Shown: in pieces, positions 6,907-29,964 of the stretch | Numbering within the stretch: position 1 is the stretch's first letter | Layout of the letters: each line of letters opens with the position of its first letter | Assembly (NCBI RefSeq): GCF_001543895.1 | Contig: NZ_JYIJ01000015.1 | Coordinates: forward strand, 186,001 to 250,000 | Origin: Carbonactinospora thermoautotrophica | Lineage (GTDB): Bacteria > Actinomycetota > Actinomycetes > Streptomycetales > Carbonactinosporaceae | Reading direction: 5' to 3' | DNA length: 64,000 nt | Position numbers and translations under genes: made by a program | The notes under the pieces: generated by a model | Database searches by the model: none | Told to the model about the DNA's origin: nothing | Seen by the model: the letters and a program-made list of their open reading frames with translations, nothing else

Positions 6907-7128
6907 TCAGGTCCCCGTGGCGGGTGCTTCGTCGGCGATCGCCGTGATGGCTCGTTTCGGGCAGCGGCCTTCGGCAAGACGCACGCGCTCGAGCAGCTCA
7001 CCGTCGACTCGCTCGGCGAGCAGGACGAGGTGATCGTCGTCCCCGACGTAAAAGACCTCCGGCACCAGTTTCATGCAGATCGCGTTGGCCTCGCACAGAT
7101 CGTGATCGACGACGACTCGCACCTTCAT
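6907..7128 (-). CDS. 3Fe-4S ferredoxin, P450 redox partner
   Basis: 73 residues. Cys12, Cys18 and Cys56 form the C-x5-C ... CP pattern of single-cluster [3Fe-4S] ferredoxins (DLCEANAIC, RCPKRAI). The second usual cysteine of a 4Fe-4S site is replaced by alanine, as in known actinomycete P450 partner ferredoxins. The ATG shares its A with the stop codon of the upstream P450 gene (TGATG), so the two are translationally coupled. The protein would pass electrons from a reductase, which is not encoded nearby, to the P450. The acidic C-terminus is also typical. Confidence 0.93.
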   Translation of the reverse strand: MKVRVVVDHDLCEANAICMKLVPEVFYVGDDDHLVLLAERVDGELLERVRLAEGRCPKRAITAIADEAPATGT

Positions 7129-8375
7129 CACCTCACCGGGGTGAACACGGCGTGGAGCCGCTTGATCCCGTGGAACTGATTCGAGCGGAGCTTCACCGGC
7201 TCCCCCACGGCCTCGATGTCGGGAAGGAGCCGGAACAGTTCCTCGAAGAGAACCGCGATCTCGCGGCGGGCGAGGTTGTGGCCGAGGCAAAAGTGCGGGC
7301 CCCCGGTCCCGAAGGCTCCGTGGCGGTTCGGATCGCGGGTGATGTCGAAGCGGTAGGGGTCAGGGAAGACCGACTCGTCGCGGTTGGCGGAGATGTACCA
7401 CATGGCGACCTTGTCGCCTTCGCGCATGCGCACACCGCCGAAGTCCACCTCCCGGGTCACGGTTCGGCGCATGTGCAGAATCGGGGTCGCCCATCGGAGG
7501 ATCTCTTCGGCGGCGTACGGCGCCCAGGCGGAGCAATCCTCGAGGAAGAGCCGCTTCTGCTCGGGGAACCGGGAGAACGCCACCAGGCCGTGGCTGATCG
7601 CGCTGCGAGTCGTCTCGCTTCCTGCTGCCAGCAGCAGGGAGAAGAATCCGCCGATCTCCTCCTGGGTCAGGCGGTGACCGTCGACTTCGGCCTCGACGAG
7701 CAAGGTGATGAGATCGTCTTTGGGGTTGCGGCGCCTCTCCTCCGCGAGCGCACACCCGTAGGCCTTCAGTTCCTGCGCGGCGGCTGATCCCTGCTCAGGG
7801 GTGACGCCGACTTCCGGGTCGTACTCCCCGAAGCTCTCGCTCGACAGCTTGAAGATGTAGTCGTGGTCCTGTGAGGGCACCCCGACCAGGTCGCAGATCA
7901 CCTCCAGAGGCAGCCGGGCCGCGATCTCGGTGACGAACTCGCATGATCCCTTCGGGGCCACCGAGTCGACGAGCGCTCTCGCCCGGGCCCGGATGTGATC
8001 CTCTATCAGCCCGATCCGGCGCGGGGTGAAGCCCCGGCTCACCAGCTTCCGGTACTTGGTGTGCTGTGGGGGGTCCATCTCGATGATCGAGGAGGAGCCC
8101 GGTCGCGTCAGTCCCATCTCCGGATCGTGGTTGACCCGGATACTCCACCGGTTGCTGAAGGTGGCGGTATCGACGGAGATGGCGGCGATGTCGGCGTAGC
8201 GGGTGACGGACCAAAAGCCCTTCCCGCAGTCGGGGTGCTCATGCCACGCGATAGGCCGCTCCCGTCGCAGCTTGGCCAGCGCCCCGTCCACGTCATCGCG
8301 CAACCAGAAGTCGAGCTGGGCCAAGTTGATCTCGTCCACGCTCAGCTCGGTGTCGGGTACGTATGCGACCACCAC
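7128..8375 (-). CDS. Cytochrome P450
   Basis: 415 residues. The I-helix motif AGSETT, the K-helix EILRW (ExxR) and the heme loop FGTGGPHFCLGHNLARRE with Cys363 as heme ligand are all present. Wording around HMRRTVTREVDFGG and RDESVFPDPYRFDI resembles the CYP124/125/142 group that hydroxylates sterol side chains or branched lipids, but the substrate is a guess. I start at GTG 8375 (first of two GTGs) because GGAGGGAGG lies five bases upstream; a longer frame to 8624 crosses the promoter region. It forms an operon with the ferredoxin and is divergent from a TetR gene with an operator in between. Confidence 0.94.
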   Translation of the reverse strand: MVVAYVPDTELSVDEINLAQLDFWLRDDVDGALAKLRRERPIAWHEHPDCGKGFWSVTRYADIAAISVDTATFSNRWSIRVNHDPEMGLTRPGSSSIIEMDPPQHTKYRKLVSRGFTPRRIGLIEDHIRARARALVDSVAPKGSCEFVTEIAARLPLEVICDLVGVPSQDHDYIFKLSSESFGEYDPEVGVTPEQGSAAAQELKAYGCALAEERRRNPKDDLITLLVEAEVDGHRLTQEEIGGFFSLLLAAGSETTRSAISHGLVAFSRFPEQKRLFLEDCSAWAPYAAEEILRWATPILHMRRTVTREVDFGGVRMREGDKVAMWYISANRDESVFPDPYRFDITRDPNRHGAFGTGGPHFCLGHNLARREIAVLFEELFRLLPDIEAVGEPVKLRSNQFHGIKRLHAVFTPVR

Positions 8376-24166: not shown

Positions 24167-24334
24167 CGCTCCTCCTGTTCGCTCGGCCGCCCCGGTACCG
24201 CTGGCATTGTCGCTGAGCAGGCCGCAGAAATTTTTCTCGCGCTGGATGTATCAGGCCGGCCGGTCCCCGCTCTTGATGGGTGAGAGTTTCGGGCAGACCG
24301 GCTCACGGGGGCCGGCGAGCGACGGGGGCTCGAG

Positions 24335-24550
24335 ATGGCGAAGACCGTGCTACGTCAGGTGCCGTGCGCGCCGCAGGGAAGCTGGGTGATGGACCAGCTC
24401 GTAGGTTGGCTGCTCGGCGTGAGGCTGCCCACGGTCCCGCTCGAACCGACCGAAGCCCAGCTGCGCCGTGACGAGATCCGCGCCGCCCACCGGCGGCGCG
24501 CGGATCCAGGGGCCCGGCAGCGTCAGGTGCTCGCTCGTCGAGCCTGCTGA
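24335..24550 (+). CDS. Possible small protein of 71 residues
   Basis: The frame starts at ATG with GGGGGCTCGAG just upstream and ends at TGA 24550, followed within 32 bp by three strong hairpins. The product has a short hydrophobic middle (about residues 18-30) and a basic tail with RRDEIRAAHRRRADP. Placement between a ribosome-binding site and terminators supports it; no family was recognised. Confidence 0.4.
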   Translation: MAKTVLRQVPCAPQGSWVMDQLVGWLLGVRLPTVPLEPTEAQLRRDEIRAAHRRRADPGARQRQVLARRAC

Positions 24551-24581: not shown

Positions 24582-24698
24582 GCGGCTTCGTGCCGCGAAG
24601 CCGCCGTGCGGGGTCCCGCACGAAGCACAGCAGTGCGGGACCCCGCACACCGCCACAGGGAAGGCGAGGCCGGCACGGGGGTACGGCCTCGCCTTCCC
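24582..24698. terminator. Cluster of three perfect hairpins
   Basis: Hairpin 1: GCGGCTTCG/CGAAGCCGC (24582-24604). Hairpin 2: 16-bp arms at 24606-24621 and 24633-24648; each arm, GTGCGGGGTCCCGCAC, can also fold on itself. Hairpin 3: 15-bp arms at 24658-24672 and 24684-24698. They lie just before the protease of the CHAT cluster and may shield it from upstream transcription. Confidence 0.65.
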
Positions 24699-24804: not shown

Positions 24805-26001
24805 ATGCGACTGGACAACCACGCGCGCCTCGAACGTCTCCTGGCCAGACACCCTGACGTCGTCGCCGCCGAGCCGGAGCCGGGCCGCACCTGTCTGGTC
24901 CGTCGCGACGAGGTGCTGGTCACCGCGTCCCACGCCGCGCACGTGGACGACCGGGTACGCCGCTGGGTCGACCGGCGGGAGGACCTGGAGGACCTGGCGA
25001 TCAGCCGGTTCCGGTTGCGCTCCAACTGCCGTGTCGACGTGTGCGACCTGGTCATGAGCGTGGTCGGCGACACGCGGCACCGCCAGCTCGGGGTGAGCCC
25101 CAACCATCTGCTGCGGGGCGAGCCGAGCTACTCGGGTGGCCCGTTCGACACCCCGCAGCCGGCCGCCGAGCTGCCCGCTCCGCGGCCGAACGGCCAGAGC
25201 GGGCGCCGGATCCGGGTGGCGGTCCTCGACACGGGCATCGCGGAGCACCCGTGGTTCACGGGCACGTCCTGGTTCGCCAGATGCGACCCGGGCACGCGGG
25301 AGGTGCTCGACGCCAACCTGGACTTCGAGCTCGACAGCGAGGCCGGGCACGGAACGTTTGTCGCCGGTGTGGTGCTCCAGCAGGCCCCCGACGTCGAACT
25401 GCACGTGGAGCGCGTCCTAGGCAGCGACGGGGTGTGCGACGAGCTGCAACTGATCCACGCGCTGGCCCGGCTGTGGCGGCGGACCGCGCTGCGCGGGGAG
25501 CCCGTGGACATCCTCAACCTCTCGCTGGGCGGGTACACGTACGACGACCGCCCCTCCCCGGTGCTGGTGCAGGCGCTCGCCCGATTCGGACGGCGGACCG
25601 TGATCGTCGCGGCGGCGGGCAACAACGCCAGCGACCGGCCGTTCTGGCCGGCCGCGCTGAAGAACGTGATCGCGGTCGCCGCGCTGGACGCCGAGGGCCG
25701 GGACCGGGCCGAGTTCTCGAACTTCGGCTGGTGGGTCGACGCCTGCGCGGTCGGCGAGCGCGTGGCCAGCTCGTTCGTCACGTTCGACAACCACGACGGG
25801 CCCGACTTCGCCGGGTACGCGACGTGGAGCGGCACCTCGTTCGCGGCACCCGCCGTGGCGGGTGCGATCGCCGCACTGGCCGGCGGCAAGGACCTGCAGG
25901 CGGCCGATGCGGCCGATCTGGTACTGGATTCGGCCAACGGCGACAATCGGCCAGACCTCGGTGTGGTCGTACGGACTTTCAGAGGCCCTCGCGTGCCATG
26001 A
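24805..26001 (+). CDS. Cytosolic subtilisin-like (S8) protease of the CHAT cluster
   Basis: 398 residues, no signal peptide and no membrane segment, so probably cytosolic. An N-terminal domain of about 135 residues of unknown type precedes the subtilase domain with Asp142 (VAVLDTGI), His182 (GHGTFVAG), oxyanion Asn273 (AAGNNAS) and Ser345 (GTSFAAPAVAG). The whole triad is intact. No inhibitor-type propeptide is recognisable, so the N-terminal domain may be a regulator or adaptor. ATG 24805 follows GGAGGGG. It is first in a four-gene plus-strand cluster (protease, sigma factor, small protein, TPR-CHAT). It may act on one of its neighbours or on a shared target; that is inference. Confidence 0.92.
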   Translation: MRLDNHARLERLLARHPDVVAAEPEPGRTCLVRRDEVLVTASHAAHVDDRVRRWVDRREDLEDLAISRFRLRSNCRVDVCDLVMSVVGDTRHRQLGVSPNHLLRGEPSYSGGPFDTPQPAAELPAPRPNGQSGRRIRVAVLDTGIAEHPWFTGTSWFARCDPGTREVLDANLDFELDSEAGHGTFVAGVVLQQAPDVELHVERVLGSDGVCDELQLIHALARLWRRTALRGEPVDILNLSLGGYTYDDRPSPVLVQALARFGRRTVIVAAAGNNASDRPFWPAALKNVIAVAALDAEGRDRAEFSNFGWWVDACAVGERVASSFVTFDNHDGPDFAGYATWSGTSFAAPAVAGAIAALAGGKDLQAADAADLVLDSANGDNRPDLGVVVRTFRGPRVP

Positions 26002-26053
26002 TCGATAGGCTGAGGGGGAAAGTCCTGACGGTCGCATATATGAGGAGGGGCTC

Positions 26054-26614
26054 CTGCCGGACACCAGTACGGCCTCCCTCGTCCGGGAGGCCTCGGCCGG
26101 CGACCAGCGTGCCTGGAACGAGCTGGTGGACCGCTACACCGGGATGGTGTGGGCCATCGCCCGCGCCCACCAGCTCAGCCCGACGGACGCCGCCGATGTC
26201 TGCCAAACCGTGTGGCTGCGCCTGGTCGAGCACCTCGACCGGTTGCGCGACCCCTCGCTCGTCGCCGGCTGGCTGGCCACGACCACCCGACACGAGTGCC
26301 TGCGGGTGCTCAAACTGGCCGGCCGTGAGCTGCCAGAGGAGGAGCTGTCGCTCGACCAGCGCTCCCGGGAGGTGGAGTCCAGTCCCGAGTCGGTGGTGCT
26401 CCACAACGAGAGCCGGGCGCTGCTGCGCAAGGCCCTGGAGCGGCTGTCGCTGCGTTGCCAGATGCTGCTCAAGGCTCTCGCGATGGCGCCGAAGCCGAAC
26501 TACGCGGAGGTGTCGTCCGCGCTGGGCATACCGGTGGGCAGCATCGGCCCGACGCGCCAGCGCTGTCTCGATTACCTGCGGCGCGAGCTCGCCGCCCAGC
26601 AGGCGTTGCCGTGA
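26054..26614 (+). CDS. ECF-like sigma factor, probable CTG start
   Basis: 186 residues. Sigma region 2 is LVREASAGDQRAWNELVDRY followed by ADVCQTVWLRLVEHLDRL and GWLATTTRHECLRVLK; region 4 at the end (about 130-180) has YAEVSSALGIPVGSIGPTRQ with the helix-turn-helix. No ATG, GTG or TTG exists in frame between the upstream stop at 26006 and GTG 26126, yet the conserved region 2 begins before 26126. GGAGG at 26044-26048 is placed five bases before CTG 26054, which I take as the start; GTG 26126 would lose 24 residues of region 2. It lies 52 bp after the protease gene and likely directs RNA polymerase to cluster or stress promoters. Confidence 0.88.
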   Translation: MPDTSTASLVREASAGDQRAWNELVDRYTGMVWAIARAHQLSPTDAADVCQTVWLRLVEHLDRLRDPSLVAGWLATTTRHECLRVLKLAGRELPEEELSLDQRSREVESSPESVVLHNESRALLRKALERLSLRCQMLLKALAMAPKPNYAEVSSALGIPVGSIGPTRQRCLDYLRRELAAQQALP

Positions 26615-26679
26615 CGCCGGTACGAGGGCCGCGCGCGGCGCGGCATGGACCCGAATCCGCGGAACGGAGATGATCCGGG

Positions 26680-27129
26680 ATGCCTGAGCCGTACGACGAG
26701 CTGCTGGACGAGCTACGTGAACTGCTCAACGAGATCGACCCCGTTCCCGCGGAGGTGGTCGAGGCCGCCAAGGCCAGCTTCACCTGGCGAACGGTCGACG
26801 CCGAGCTGGCGGAACTCACCGAGGACAGCGCGCTCGCCGAGGCCGCCGGCATCCGAGGTCCGGGCGGCCCTCGGCTACTCACGTTCGAAGCCCCGGATCT
26901 CACGGTGGTCGTGGAGGTGAGCGCGATCGGCGACCGGCGCCGGATGCTCGGCCAGCTGGTGCCGCCGTACGCCGCCGAGGTCGAGGTACGGCACCGGGAC
27001 GGCACGGAGACGGTGAGCGCCGACGATCTGGGCCGGTTCACGGTCGAGCAGGTTCCGGCCGGGCCGGTCAGCTTCGCCTGCCGAAGTGCCTCCCGACGGA
27101 CCGTGGTCACAAGCTGGGTGACCGTCTGA
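26680..27129 (+). CDS. Small protein with predicted beta-sandwich C-terminus, CHAT cluster
   Basis: 149 residues, acidic. The N-terminal 35 residues are helical (YDELLDELRELLNEIDPVPA); the middle has strands; the end (about 90-149) has the alternation seen in transthyretin/carboxypeptidase regulatory-like folds (VEVRHRDGTETVSADDLGRF, then TVEQVPAGPVSFACR). No enzyme motif is seen. It may be an anti-sigma partner, sensor or protease substrate. ATG 26680 is preceded by GGAG about ten bases away. It lies 65 bp after the sigma gene and 51 bp before the CHAT gene. Confidence 0.75.
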   Translation: MPEPYDELLDELRELLNEIDPVPAEVVEAAKASFTWRTVDAELAELTEDSALAEAAGIRGPGGPRLLTFEAPDLTVVVEVSAIGDRRRMLGQLVPPYAAEVEVRHRDGTETVSADDLGRFTVEQVPAGPVSFACRSASRRTVVTSWVTV

Positions 27130-27180
27130 CGAACCGGCGGCGATGACGCCACGCGATCCGGAGTCGCTACCCTTCCTCGC

Positions 27181-29799
27181 GTGCCGCACGCCGCCGAATG
27201 GACGACCAACGAACGCCTGGCCCGTGCCGAGTCCGCGATCGAACGGGTGGTGGACGACCCGGGCTGGGCACGTGAGGCCGCCTACCGACTGCTGACCGCG
27301 CACGTGTCGGACGAGGCCGCGACGGTGGCGCGTCGGGTGCTGGGGTTGGCCGCCAAGGAACTGGGCGACCTGGCGGGGGCGGTGCGCCACCTGCGGGCGG
27401 CGGTGCGGTTCGCCGAGCGGGCCGGTTTCGCGCGCCGGGCCGGGGAAGCGCGGATGAGCCTGGCGGTGGTGCTGGCCGACCTGGGCCGCACCGAGGCCGC
27501 GCTCGCCGAGGCCGACCGGGCGGCGGCGGTGCTGACCGGCCAGGACGCGGCCCGCCTCACCGCGCAGCGGGGGCTGATCCTGCAGCGGCTGGGGCGCGCG
27601 GAGGAGGCGCTGTCCTGCTACCGGCGCGCGCTGCCGGCGCTACGCCGCTACCGCGACACGCTGTGGGAAACCCGGGTGCTGCTGCACCGGGGCACCCTGT
27701 ACGCCTACCAGGGCGCGCACCAGGCTGCCGAGGCCGACCTGACCAAGTGCATCGAGCTGGCCCGGCAGGCCGGGCTGGACCTGCTGTACTCCTTCGCGCT
27801 GAACAACCTGGGCTTCGCCAAGCTGCGCCGCGGGGACATCCCCACCGCGCTCGCGCTGTGCGACGAGTCGATCCGGGTGCAGGCCAAGCTGGGTATGCCC
27901 GCGGTGCCACCGCGGTGCGACCGGGCGGACGCGCTGATCGCGGCCGGGTTGGGTCAGGAGGCGCGCGAGACCCTGACCGAGGTGGTGGCGGAGTTCGAAC
28001 GGGACGGGTTCGCGATCTACGCCGCCGAGGCCCGGCTGACGCTCGCGCAGGCCGCGCTGCTCGACGAGGATCCGGCCGCGGCCCGGGAGGCCGCCCAGCG
28101 CGCGTACGCCGAATTCACCCGCCAGCGCCGGCACGCCTGGGCGCGGCTGGCGCGCAAGACCGAGATCGCCGCCCGGTGGGCGCTGGGTGAGCGCAGCCGG
28201 GCCCTGCTGCGGGACGCGGTGCGGGTGGCCGACCAGCTCGCCGCGGCCGGCTGGCCCGACGACGCGCTCCAGACCCGGCTGCTGGCCGGGCGGGTGGCGC
28301 TGGAACTGGGACTCAAGCCGCGGGCCCGCACGTTGCTCGCCGCCGCGGCGGCCGGCCGGCGACGCGGCCCGGCCCAGCTGCGGGCCGCCGCCTGGCACGC
28401 CGAGGCGCTACGCCGGCTGCTGGACGCCGACCGCGCCGGGGCGTCCCGGGCGTTGCGGGCCGGGCTGCGCGTGCTGGAGGAGAACGCCGCCATTCTCGGC
28501 GCCACCGACCTGCGCGCGCACTCGGCGGTGTTCGGCGAGGAGCTGGCCACCCTCGGGCTGCGCCTGGCGCTGGAGGAGGGCCGCGCCCGGGAGGTGCTGC
28601 GCTGGTCGGAACGCTGGCGCGCAGGCGCCCTGCGGCAGCGCCCGGTGCGCCCGCCAGAAGACAGCCGGCTGGCCGAGGACCTGGCCGCGCTGCGGCAGGT
28701 GGTGTCCCGGATCGCCGAGGAAGGCCTGGCCGGGCACGACACCACGCGGCTGCGGGCCGAACGGCTGCGCCTGGAGCGCGCCATCTGCAACCGCTCCCGG
28801 CACGCGCGCGGGCCGGGCGGGCGCGCCGCCGAGCTGGACCTGGGCGCGCTGGCCGAGGCGCTCGGCGACCGCGCCCTGGTCGAGCTGCTGCGGCTCGACG
28901 AGCGGTTGCACGCGGTGACCATGGTGGACGGCCGGGTGCGGCTGTTCACCCTGGGCGAGTACGCCGAGACGCTGCGGGAGACGGAGTCGCTGCGGTTCTC
29001 GCTCAACCGGCTGGCCCGCCGGCACGGGGGCGAGCCCCTCCTGGCGGCGGCGCGGCTGGCCCTGCGGTACGCAGCCGGACGGCTGGACGAGATCCTGTTC
29101 GCGCCGCTGCGGTCCACGCTCGGGGACCGGGAGCTGGTCGTGGTGCCCACCGGCGCGCTGCACGCACTGCCCTGGACCGTGCTCCCCACCTGTGCGGGAC
29201 GCCCGGTGGCGGTGGCGCCGTCCGCCCGCACCTGGCTGGCTACGGTGCGGGGGGCGTCCCGGCCGGGCACGGCGGGGGTCGCGCTGGTGGCCGGCCCGGG
29301 GTTGGAGCACGCCGAGCCGGAGGTCCGGGACCTGGCCCACCGCTACCGGGAGGCGCGCCTGCTCGCCGGCCAGGACGCGACCGTGCAGGCGGTGAGCACG
29401 GCGATCGACGGCGCGGACTTGGCGCACATCGCCGCGCATGGACACTTCCGCGCCGACAACCCGCTGTTCTCCTGCCTGGACCTGGTCGACGGCCCGCTCA
29501 CCGTGTACGACATGGAGCGGCTGGAGCAGGCCCCGCGCCGCCTGGTGCTGTCGGCCTGCGACTCGGCGCTGTCGGCGGTGCGACCAGGGGATGAGCTGAT
29601 GGGCCTGGCGAGCGCGGTGTTCGCGCTGGGCACGAGCACGCTGGTCGCGAGCGTCACGCCAGTGCCGGACGACGAGACCCGCCGCCTCATGACCGACCTG
29701 CACGACCGGCTCGTCGGCGGGACGCCTCCAGCGCGGGCGTTGGCTGAGGCTCAGCAGGCCGTCGGGGTCGACGGGTTCGTCTGCTTCGGCGCCGGGTAG
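27181..29799 (+). CDS. TPR-CHAT caspase-like protease
   Basis: 872 residues. The first ~400 residues are helical repeats of TPR type (for example AGAVRHLRAAVRFAERAGFA, YRRALPALRRYRDTLWETRV). A helical linker with charged stretches follows, then a CHAT domain from about 560. The catalytic dyad is present: His753 in HIAAHGHFRAD and Cys793 in LSACDSA. CHAT domains are caspase/separase-like cysteine proteases, and TPR-CHAT proteins elsewhere act in immune or death pathways (Csx29 of type III-E CRISPR). GTG 27181 has no ribosome-binding site; TACCCT lies exactly seven bases upstream, so it may have its own leaderless promoter. The TPR part probably senses a partner protein. Confidence 0.95.
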   Translation: MPHAAEWTTNERLARAESAIERVVDDPGWAREAAYRLLTAHVSDEAATVARRVLGLAAKELGDLAGAVRHLRAAVRFAERAGFARRAGEARMSLAVVLADLGRTEAALAEADRAAAVLTGQDAARLTAQRGLILQRLGRAEEALSCYRRALPALRRYRDTLWETRVLLHRGTLYAYQGAHQAAEADLTKCIELARQAGLDLLYSFALNNLGFAKLRRGDIPTALALCDESIRVQAKLGMPAVPPRCDRADALIAAGLGQEARETLTEVVAEFERDGFAIYAAEARLTLAQAALLDEDPAAAREAAQRAYAEFTRQRRHAWARLARKTEIAARWALGERSRALLRDAVRVADQLAAAGWPDDALQTRLLAGRVALELGLKPRARTLLAAAAAGRRRGPAQLRAAAWHAEALRRLLDADRAGASRALRAGLRVLEENAAILGATDLRAHSAVFGEELATLGLRLALEEGRAREVLRWSERWRAGALRQRPVRPPEDSRLAEDLAALRQVVSRIAEEGLAGHDTTRLRAERLRLERAICNRSRHARGPGGRAAELDLGALAEALGDRALVELLRLDERLHAVTMVDGRVRLFTLGEYAETLRETESLRFSLNRLARRHGGEPLLAAARLALRYAAGRLDEILFAPLRSTLGDRELVVVPTGALHALPWTVLPTCAGRPVAVAPSARTWLATVRGASRPGTAGVALVAGPGLEHAEPEVRDLAHRYREARLLAGQDATVQAVSTAIDGADLAHIAAHGHFRADNPLFSCLDLVDGPLTVYDMERLEQAPRRLVLSACDSALSAVRPGDELMGLASAVFALGTSTLVASVTPVPDDETRRLMTDLHDRLVGGTPPARALAEAQQAVGVDGFVCFGAG

Positions 29800-29925
29800 A
29801 AGGATCTTGTTCACGTACCGTGACGTTCCGGTGACGGGATGCAAGAAGATATCTGGACGAATCAGGTCAGACCGGGTTAGATACTGCCCCGGACGCTAGG
29901 ACGCATAGATCTTTGGGGGTTGCCC

Positions 29926-29964
29926 ATGCGCGGCTTCCTGTACCGGCTGTTCGGGCTGGCCTGA
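29926..29964 (+). CDS. Possible 12-residue micro-peptide, MRGFLYRLFGLA
   Basis: ATG 29926 follows GGGGG with six-base spacing; the frame ends at TGA 29964. The peptide is short, basic and amphipathic. TTAGATACT at about 29877-29885 could be its -10 region. A 10-bp-stem terminator lies 30 bp downstream. It is too short to prove by sequence alone and may be chance. Confidence 0.35.
   Translation: MRGFLYRLFGLA

Follow-up and report, generated by a model that had tools for sequence, protein, structure and literature searches.

A four-gene protease and sigma factor module of Actinomycetota and a proposal for its regulatory wiring

An ECF-type sigma factor that is encoded together with two unlike proteases and a small protein raises the question of whether the four proteins belong to one regulatory circuit, and which of the proteases would then control the sigma factor. 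Such a locus is found in the window, by which is meant the whole 64,000-nucleotide stretch of DNA that was analysed (contig C15, 186001-250000), in the 5.13 Mb actinobacterial genome of Carbonactinospora thermoautotrophica. A sequence-only reading of the window suggested a cascade in which a sensed signal activates either a subtilisin-like (S8) protease or a TPR-CHAT protease, with cleavage freeing or degrading the small protein and the sigma factor changing transcription. The comparison presented here was made across the homologs of these genes in Actinomycetota.

The four genes and their upstream region

The genes are co-directional and span 24805-29799 (Table 1). Pfam and NCBIfam matches and the invariance in homologs confirmed both this arrangement and the catalytic residues that had been named from the sequence. 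D142, H182, and S345 of the S8 protease are each present in 59 of 59 homologs, and H753 and C793 of the CHAT domain are each found in all 62 homologs where they are aligned. The S8 protease has no evident signal peptide, and a domain of about 125 amino acids lies ahead of its catalytic domain. The TPR-CHAT protein carries the CHAT domain, the His-Cys dyad and the TPR fusion of a TPR-CHAT protease, and is the sole CHAT protein of its genome. The sigma gene probably starts at the CTG codon at 26054, a few nucleotides after the strong ribosome-binding site GAGGAGGGG, since the first in-frame ATG, GTG, or TTG codon (26126) would truncate region 2. Automatic gene callers restricted to these three start codons would shorten the ORF.

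Table 1. Features of the module and of its predicted leader, in window coordinates.
Feature	Position	Strand	Remarks
Predicted sigma-specific promoter, TGTATCAG-N14-GCTC	24247..24272	+	Exact motif
71-aa ORF in predicted leader	24335..24550	+	Probably outside the conserved module
Perfect 16-bp inverted repeat, predicted leader	24606..24648	+	Read from sequence
Stem-loop, loop contains ACGGGGGT	24658..24698	+	Element also seen ahead of the operon in further genera
S8 (subtilisin-like) protease	24805..26001	+	Pfam Peptidase_S8 E 9.6e-30; triad D142/H182/S345
ECF-type sigma factor, 185 aa	~26054..26614	+	Sigma70_r2 E 2.8e-13; TIGR02937 E 1.7e-20
149-aa partner protein	26680..27129	+	Helices 4-55, linker 56-64, β-sandwich 65-143 (predicted)
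Arg59-Gly60 codons, proposed cleavage site	26854..26859	+	Linker Arg conservation
TPR-CHAT protease, 872 aa	27181..29799	+	CHAT E 4.4e-36; TPR_12 E 4.1e-14; dyad H753/C793

The borders of the cluster had to be moved at both ends. Its end had been placed at 29964, which is the terminus of a twelve-codon ORF (MRGFLYRLFGLA, 29926-29964) found 3' of the CHAT gene behind a G-rich sequence. This ORF lies outside the conserved module, and no convincing homolog of it was found in the other module loci checked. The strong hairpins that had been taken as the upstream flank (24606-24648 and 24658-24698) fall within a predicted operon leader of about 0.5 kb, since the conserved promoter at 24247 precedes both, and they are thereby ruled out as operon boundaries.

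The promoter motif, in the form TGTATCAG-N13 to 15-(G/C)CTC, is found upstream of the S8 or the sigma gene in loci of many genera. In 29 of 101 loci a relaxed motif, TGTATCA-N-CTC, occurs within 700 nt upstream of sigma or S8, and the other 72 have no exact match in this interval. The corresponding number for permuted motifs was 0.013 on average and never more than 1. There is one site of the TGTATCAG form in the whole genome to which the window belongs, and in most genomes the number is one or a few, close to the background obtained with the reversed pattern. We infer that the promoter is used by the sigma factor of the module itself. The most frequent arrangement begins with the S8 gene, and in many loci the motif stands immediately ahead of this gene; where S8 forms a separate unit, it often carries a copy of its own. 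The motif is never found directly before the CHAT gene.

Further copies of the motif were seen in some lineages. In Streptomyces-like families (L045:14354-16324, L044, L046, L047, L104, and L197) a second copy lies ~34-70 nt upstream of the start of a large LuxR-type ATP-binding regulator, which may be a second target of the sigma factor. In a single lineage a copy precedes a gene for a third type of protease, trypsin/Nal1-like, that adjoins the module (L236:9471-10949).

In several genera the S8 or the sigma gene is preceded, at a distance of 70-180 nt, by the sequence ACGGGGGT (L081, at ~7105-7150, L031-L038, L080, L095, L097, and L098). It mostly sits in the loop of a stem-loop with a stem of up to 18 bp, the sequence of which differs among genera, and it lies upstream of the promoter in L081 and downstream of it in other loci. 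It may be a structured leader element. An Rfam scan of the leader gave sub-threshold chance matches only. The 71-aa leader ORF matches nothing in Pfam, has no homologs at the other loci, and was rejected as a member of the module. Another candidate from the upstream k-mer search, TGGAGCGGCAC, turned out to be nothing but the codons for the S8 active site (WSGTS), which lie upstream of sigma.

Conservation and inheritance of the module

The small protein is present in 25 of 41 near relatives, in 95 of 297 genomes of the class (50 of 115 genera), and in other classes of the phylum as well. The sigma gene is found directly upstream of it on the same strand in 106 of the 115 copies in the fetched loci, and downstream in none. 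No natural fusion of the two proteins was found among the examined loci. The S8 and CHAT genes are more variable in order and orientation, being moved, flipped, or found elsewhere across the loci; both are located within 7 kb in 58 of the 80 loci with enough flanking sequence. CHAT is encoded by all 95 sampled genomes of the class that have the small protein vs. 63 of the 202 that do not (Fisher p 2.6e-35, uncorrected for phylogeny, a value that overstates independence because the genomes are related). Twenty loci taken from other classes as an independent set showed the same pattern. The conservation of the four genes is far beyond chance, and the module, whose gene order the sequence-only reading needed to be conserved in other actinomycetes, is found phylum-wide in Actinomycetota.

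One whole family (f21) has sigma and the small protein at one site and a divergent S8/CHAT pair far away, and both halves persist. No copy of the promoter motif was found at this unlinked pair. The S8 gene beside CHAT is often in tandem duplicate in this family (L185, L186, L181, and L189). In one family of another class (L199-L203) the order is sigma, small protein, CHAT, and S8 on a single strand.

In the window the module is flanked by genes for DUF3071 (SepH), kynureninase, rhodanese, and phosphodiesterase. About 30 loci share the DUF3071/SepH, rhodanese, and phosphodiesterase flanks, which indicates vertical inheritance at one chromosomal address. An origin from a phage or another mobile element was rejected: the phage collection contained no match, and the plasmid collection contained a single record, which is chromosome-sized, the replicon being 11.85 Mb. 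One scan of genome contigs gave one relative.

The small protein and the protease that may cut it

Members of the small-protein family start with a helical N-terminus displaying the motif DPVPxxVxxAAxAxFxWRxxDAELAEL, which is followed by a short linker. The protein had been described as β-sandwich-like, and this holds as a prediction for its C-terminal half, which is also weakly CarboxypepD_reg-like (E 0.0047 for the window protein; matches in 32 of 48 homologs, best 8.9e-6). An AlphaFold model built from two sequences, of modest confidence (mean pLDDT 66), places the β-sandwich at pLDDT ~80 after the helices, while the linker at ~56-64 is of low confidence and predicted to be disordered. Foldseek returned Ig-like β-sandwiches only, with nothing below E 0.001, and a sequence search of the PDB with the small-protein profile gave no match. 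No recognised anti-sigma domain of Pfam was found in the window protein or in 48 homologs, among which only CarboxypepD_reg-type matches recur. By analogy with partners of other ECF sigma factors, the protein is proposed as a candidate soluble anti-sigma factor.

Only four columns are invariant among 79 aligned homologs: G91, G118, and F120 in the β-domain, and R59 in the linker. When other classes are added, Arg59 is kept in 111 of 112 homologs, and the next residue is Gly, Ser, or Ala in 104 of the 112. The linker around it is otherwise variable. This pattern is what the site of a protease with Arg in P1 and a small residue in P1' would resemble. The small proteins of L199-L203 have a divergent N-terminal half and keep the linker Arg.

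The loss of genes in some lineages connects the arginine with one of the two proteases. In family f19, eleven genomes with a completeness of 99-100% contain no relative of S8 at E 1e-8 and have kept sigma, the small protein, and CHAT; Arg59 is retained in eight of the eight small proteins examined from these genomes. The sole homolog without R59 is encoded by locus L214 of genome G657 (96% complete, 20 contigs), where neither CHAT nor S8 was found and the pair of sigma and small protein persists. R59 thus follows CHAT and not S8, since the S8-less genomes keep it and the genome that has lost it is without both proteases. The loss of R59 is a single case, and the L214 protein is divergent and has lost the near-invariant L46, D115, and T144 as well. 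R59 and D115 do not co-vary, as twelve other homologs without D115 retain R59.

Arg59 might alternatively be needed for structure, folding, or sigma binding, with CHAT being merely co-regulated and acting on another target, for instance as a sigma-induced effector of stress or anti-phage responses. CHAT proteins elsewhere cleave diverse targets, and Arg59 is retained in two fragmented genomes (G660 and G556) where CHAT was not detected, which could reflect assembly gaps or be a counterexample. However, the residue lies in a low-confidence, variable linker, varies independently of D115, and is missing only where CHAT is missing, and an effector induced by the sigma factor is at odds with a CHAT gene that never directly follows the promoter motif. 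We find this explanation unlikely, if still worth keeping in mind.

Cleavage after Arg59 would require a protease that accepts arginine. A search of the PDB with the CHAT profile matched 8rot (an unnamed CHAT protein, 1.2e-11), Csx29 (E ~1e-7), and, weakly, separase (0.03). The acidic residue D830 is conserved in 61 of 65 rows, and Csx29 has a Ser at the corresponding position. Csx29 cleaves Csx30 between residues 427 and 429, around Met427 (PMC10028731). Separase cuts after Arg, and in a model the P1 Arg is contacted by a conserved Asp located where the equivalent helix begins (PMC4626109). Judged from profile and position, D830 would match this Asp, which suggests that the CHAT protease is specific for Arg rather than Met. 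In the AlphaFold model of the TPR-CHAT protein, built from two sequences, the TPR part was fair and the CHAT part unusable.

Tree distances were compared over the 45 loci carrying all four genes. The partial correlation was 0.55 (0.41-0.64) for sigma and the small protein, 0.49 (0.34-0.63) for S8 and CHAT, 0.31 (0.13-0.50) for the small protein and CHAT, and -0.05 (-0.20-0.08) for S8 and the small protein, so that the proteins link up as S8-CHAT-(small protein, sigma). The small protein is probably cut by CHAT rather than by S8, and S8 appears to pair with CHAT. Comparative genomics supports the functional link and the cascade idea of the sequence-only reading, and its two candidate cutters are narrowed to CHAT as the likely one.

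The opposite assignment, in which S8 controls the sigma factor by cutting or degrading either it or the small protein and CHAT is a downstream effector, would fit the leading position of S8 behind the promoter motif, and the ECF54 review names a subtilase among the candidate controllers (PMC8999054). Against this, sigma, the small protein, and CHAT are all kept in the eleven complete genomes without S8, and the tree distances of S8 display no partial correlation to those of sigma or the small protein. We judge it improbable that S8 has this role.

A proposed switch and its relation to known systems

The reading that we prefer, and to which we give an even chance of being right, is a chromosomal and cytosolic switch in which CHAT cuts an anti-sigma partner after Arg59 and the freed sigma factor amplifies its own operon. 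The ECF sigma factor would be bound and held inactive by the 149-aa protein until the TPR part of the TPR-CHAT protease senses a signal. The conservation of Arg59 and the pattern of gene loss suggest that CHAT would then cut the small protein in the linker that joins its helical N-terminal part to the β-sandwich. The freed sigma factor would transcribe its own operon from TGTATCAG-N14-GCTC in a positive feedback, and in some lineages it may also drive a separate S8 unit or the LuxR-type regulator. The partner of S8 would be CHAT, which it might either precede in the pathway or restrain, and the small protein would not be its target. That the small protein would instead be an activator, chaperone, or stabiliser of sigma, with CHAT cleavage ending the response, seems rather improbable to us, as the pairing with sigma (retained in G657 without both proteases) and the conservation of Arg59 are compatible with either sign, but two analogies speak against it: soluble partners encoded beside ECF sigma factors tend to be inhibitors, and so is Csx30, the closest mechanistic precedent.

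The proposed switch is patterned on the Csx29-Csx30-CASP-sigma system (type III-E, Craspase) and on regulated anti-sigma proteolysis in general. Anti-sigma factors of the RseA/RsiW type are membrane proteins that are cut by DegS/RseP-type proteases. The module would share with this regulated intramembrane proteolysis the relief of ECF sigma inhibition by a protease, but its parts all appear to be cytosolic and the proposed cutter is CHAT. Csx29 cleaves Csx30, which inhibits CASP-sigma until it is cut (PMC10028731). Both systems combine a TPR-CHAT protease with an ECF sigma factor and with a partner of two domains that has a flexible loop, the cleavage of this loop being predicted in the module. 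They differ in that the partner of the Csx29 system is ~565 aa against 149 aa here, in the additional S8 protease of the module, and in that the module has been passed on vertically at one chromosomal position in many genomes. Neither Cas7-11 nor any other CRISPR gene was seen next to the module in the window, and the module CHAT scores 15.6 bits with the Csx29 family model NF041237 of NCBIfam, where the cut-off is 300. In the literature searched, a TPR-CHAT protein together with a sigma factor was found in CRISPR contexts only. A search for anti-phage defence systems with PADLOC gave weak or generic matches only (subtilase E 4e-18, BovA E 5e-4), and none for sigma or the small protein. Separase (clan CD) has a CHAT-related caspase fold and a conserved acidic residue fitting a P1 arginine, but it is a eukaryotic cohesin protease whose substrate and regulation are unrelated to the module.

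The closest description of the gene neighbourhood is that of the ECF54 group. In its account of this group, a review lists conserved carboxypeptidase, subtilase, and CHAT neighbours and reports that proteolytic control without an anti-sigma factor has been proposed; the representative is from Geodermatophilus amargosae (PMC8999054, citing Casas-Pastor 2021, Huang 2015). The module matches that account in being actinobacterial and in having subtilase, CHAT, and carboxypeptidase-type neighbours, and its sigma factor has the ECF54 form, with regions 2 and 4 and no long extension. The "carboxypeptidase" of the account corresponds here to the 149-aa partner, which has merely a regulatory-like fold, and the candidate cleavage site, the promoter motif, and the gene-loss evidence go beyond what the account contains. 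The cluster holds up as a real one, in a neighbourhood that has already been listed as ECF54. What appears to be new is the proposed wiring, along with the candidate cleavage residue, the promoter, and the evidence from gene loss, though part of this, for example the promoter motif, may already be in the supplements of the primary ECF54 classification papers.

ECF54 is a widespread and uncharacterised group of sigma factors with no recognised anti-sigma factor or signal. It now has a candidate anti-sigma factor, an expected cut residue, an expected protease, and a promoter for use in a reporter, and the question of its control can therefore be reduced to a few direct experiments. A more general claim, made more tentatively than that of the switch itself and somewhat short of an even chance in our view, is that a CRISPR-free caspase-sigma switch exists across Actinomycetota, in which a separase-like, Arg-specific TPR-CHAT protease would free an ECF sigma factor by cutting a soluble anti-sigma protein of a new family at one site, and a subtilisin would tune CHAT. 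If this is true, caspase-type proteolytic control of transcription would be a regular part of actinobacterial regulation instead of a peculiarity of CRISPR systems, and Csx29-Csx30-CASP-sigma would represent one form, taken over by CRISPR, of a more widespread design.
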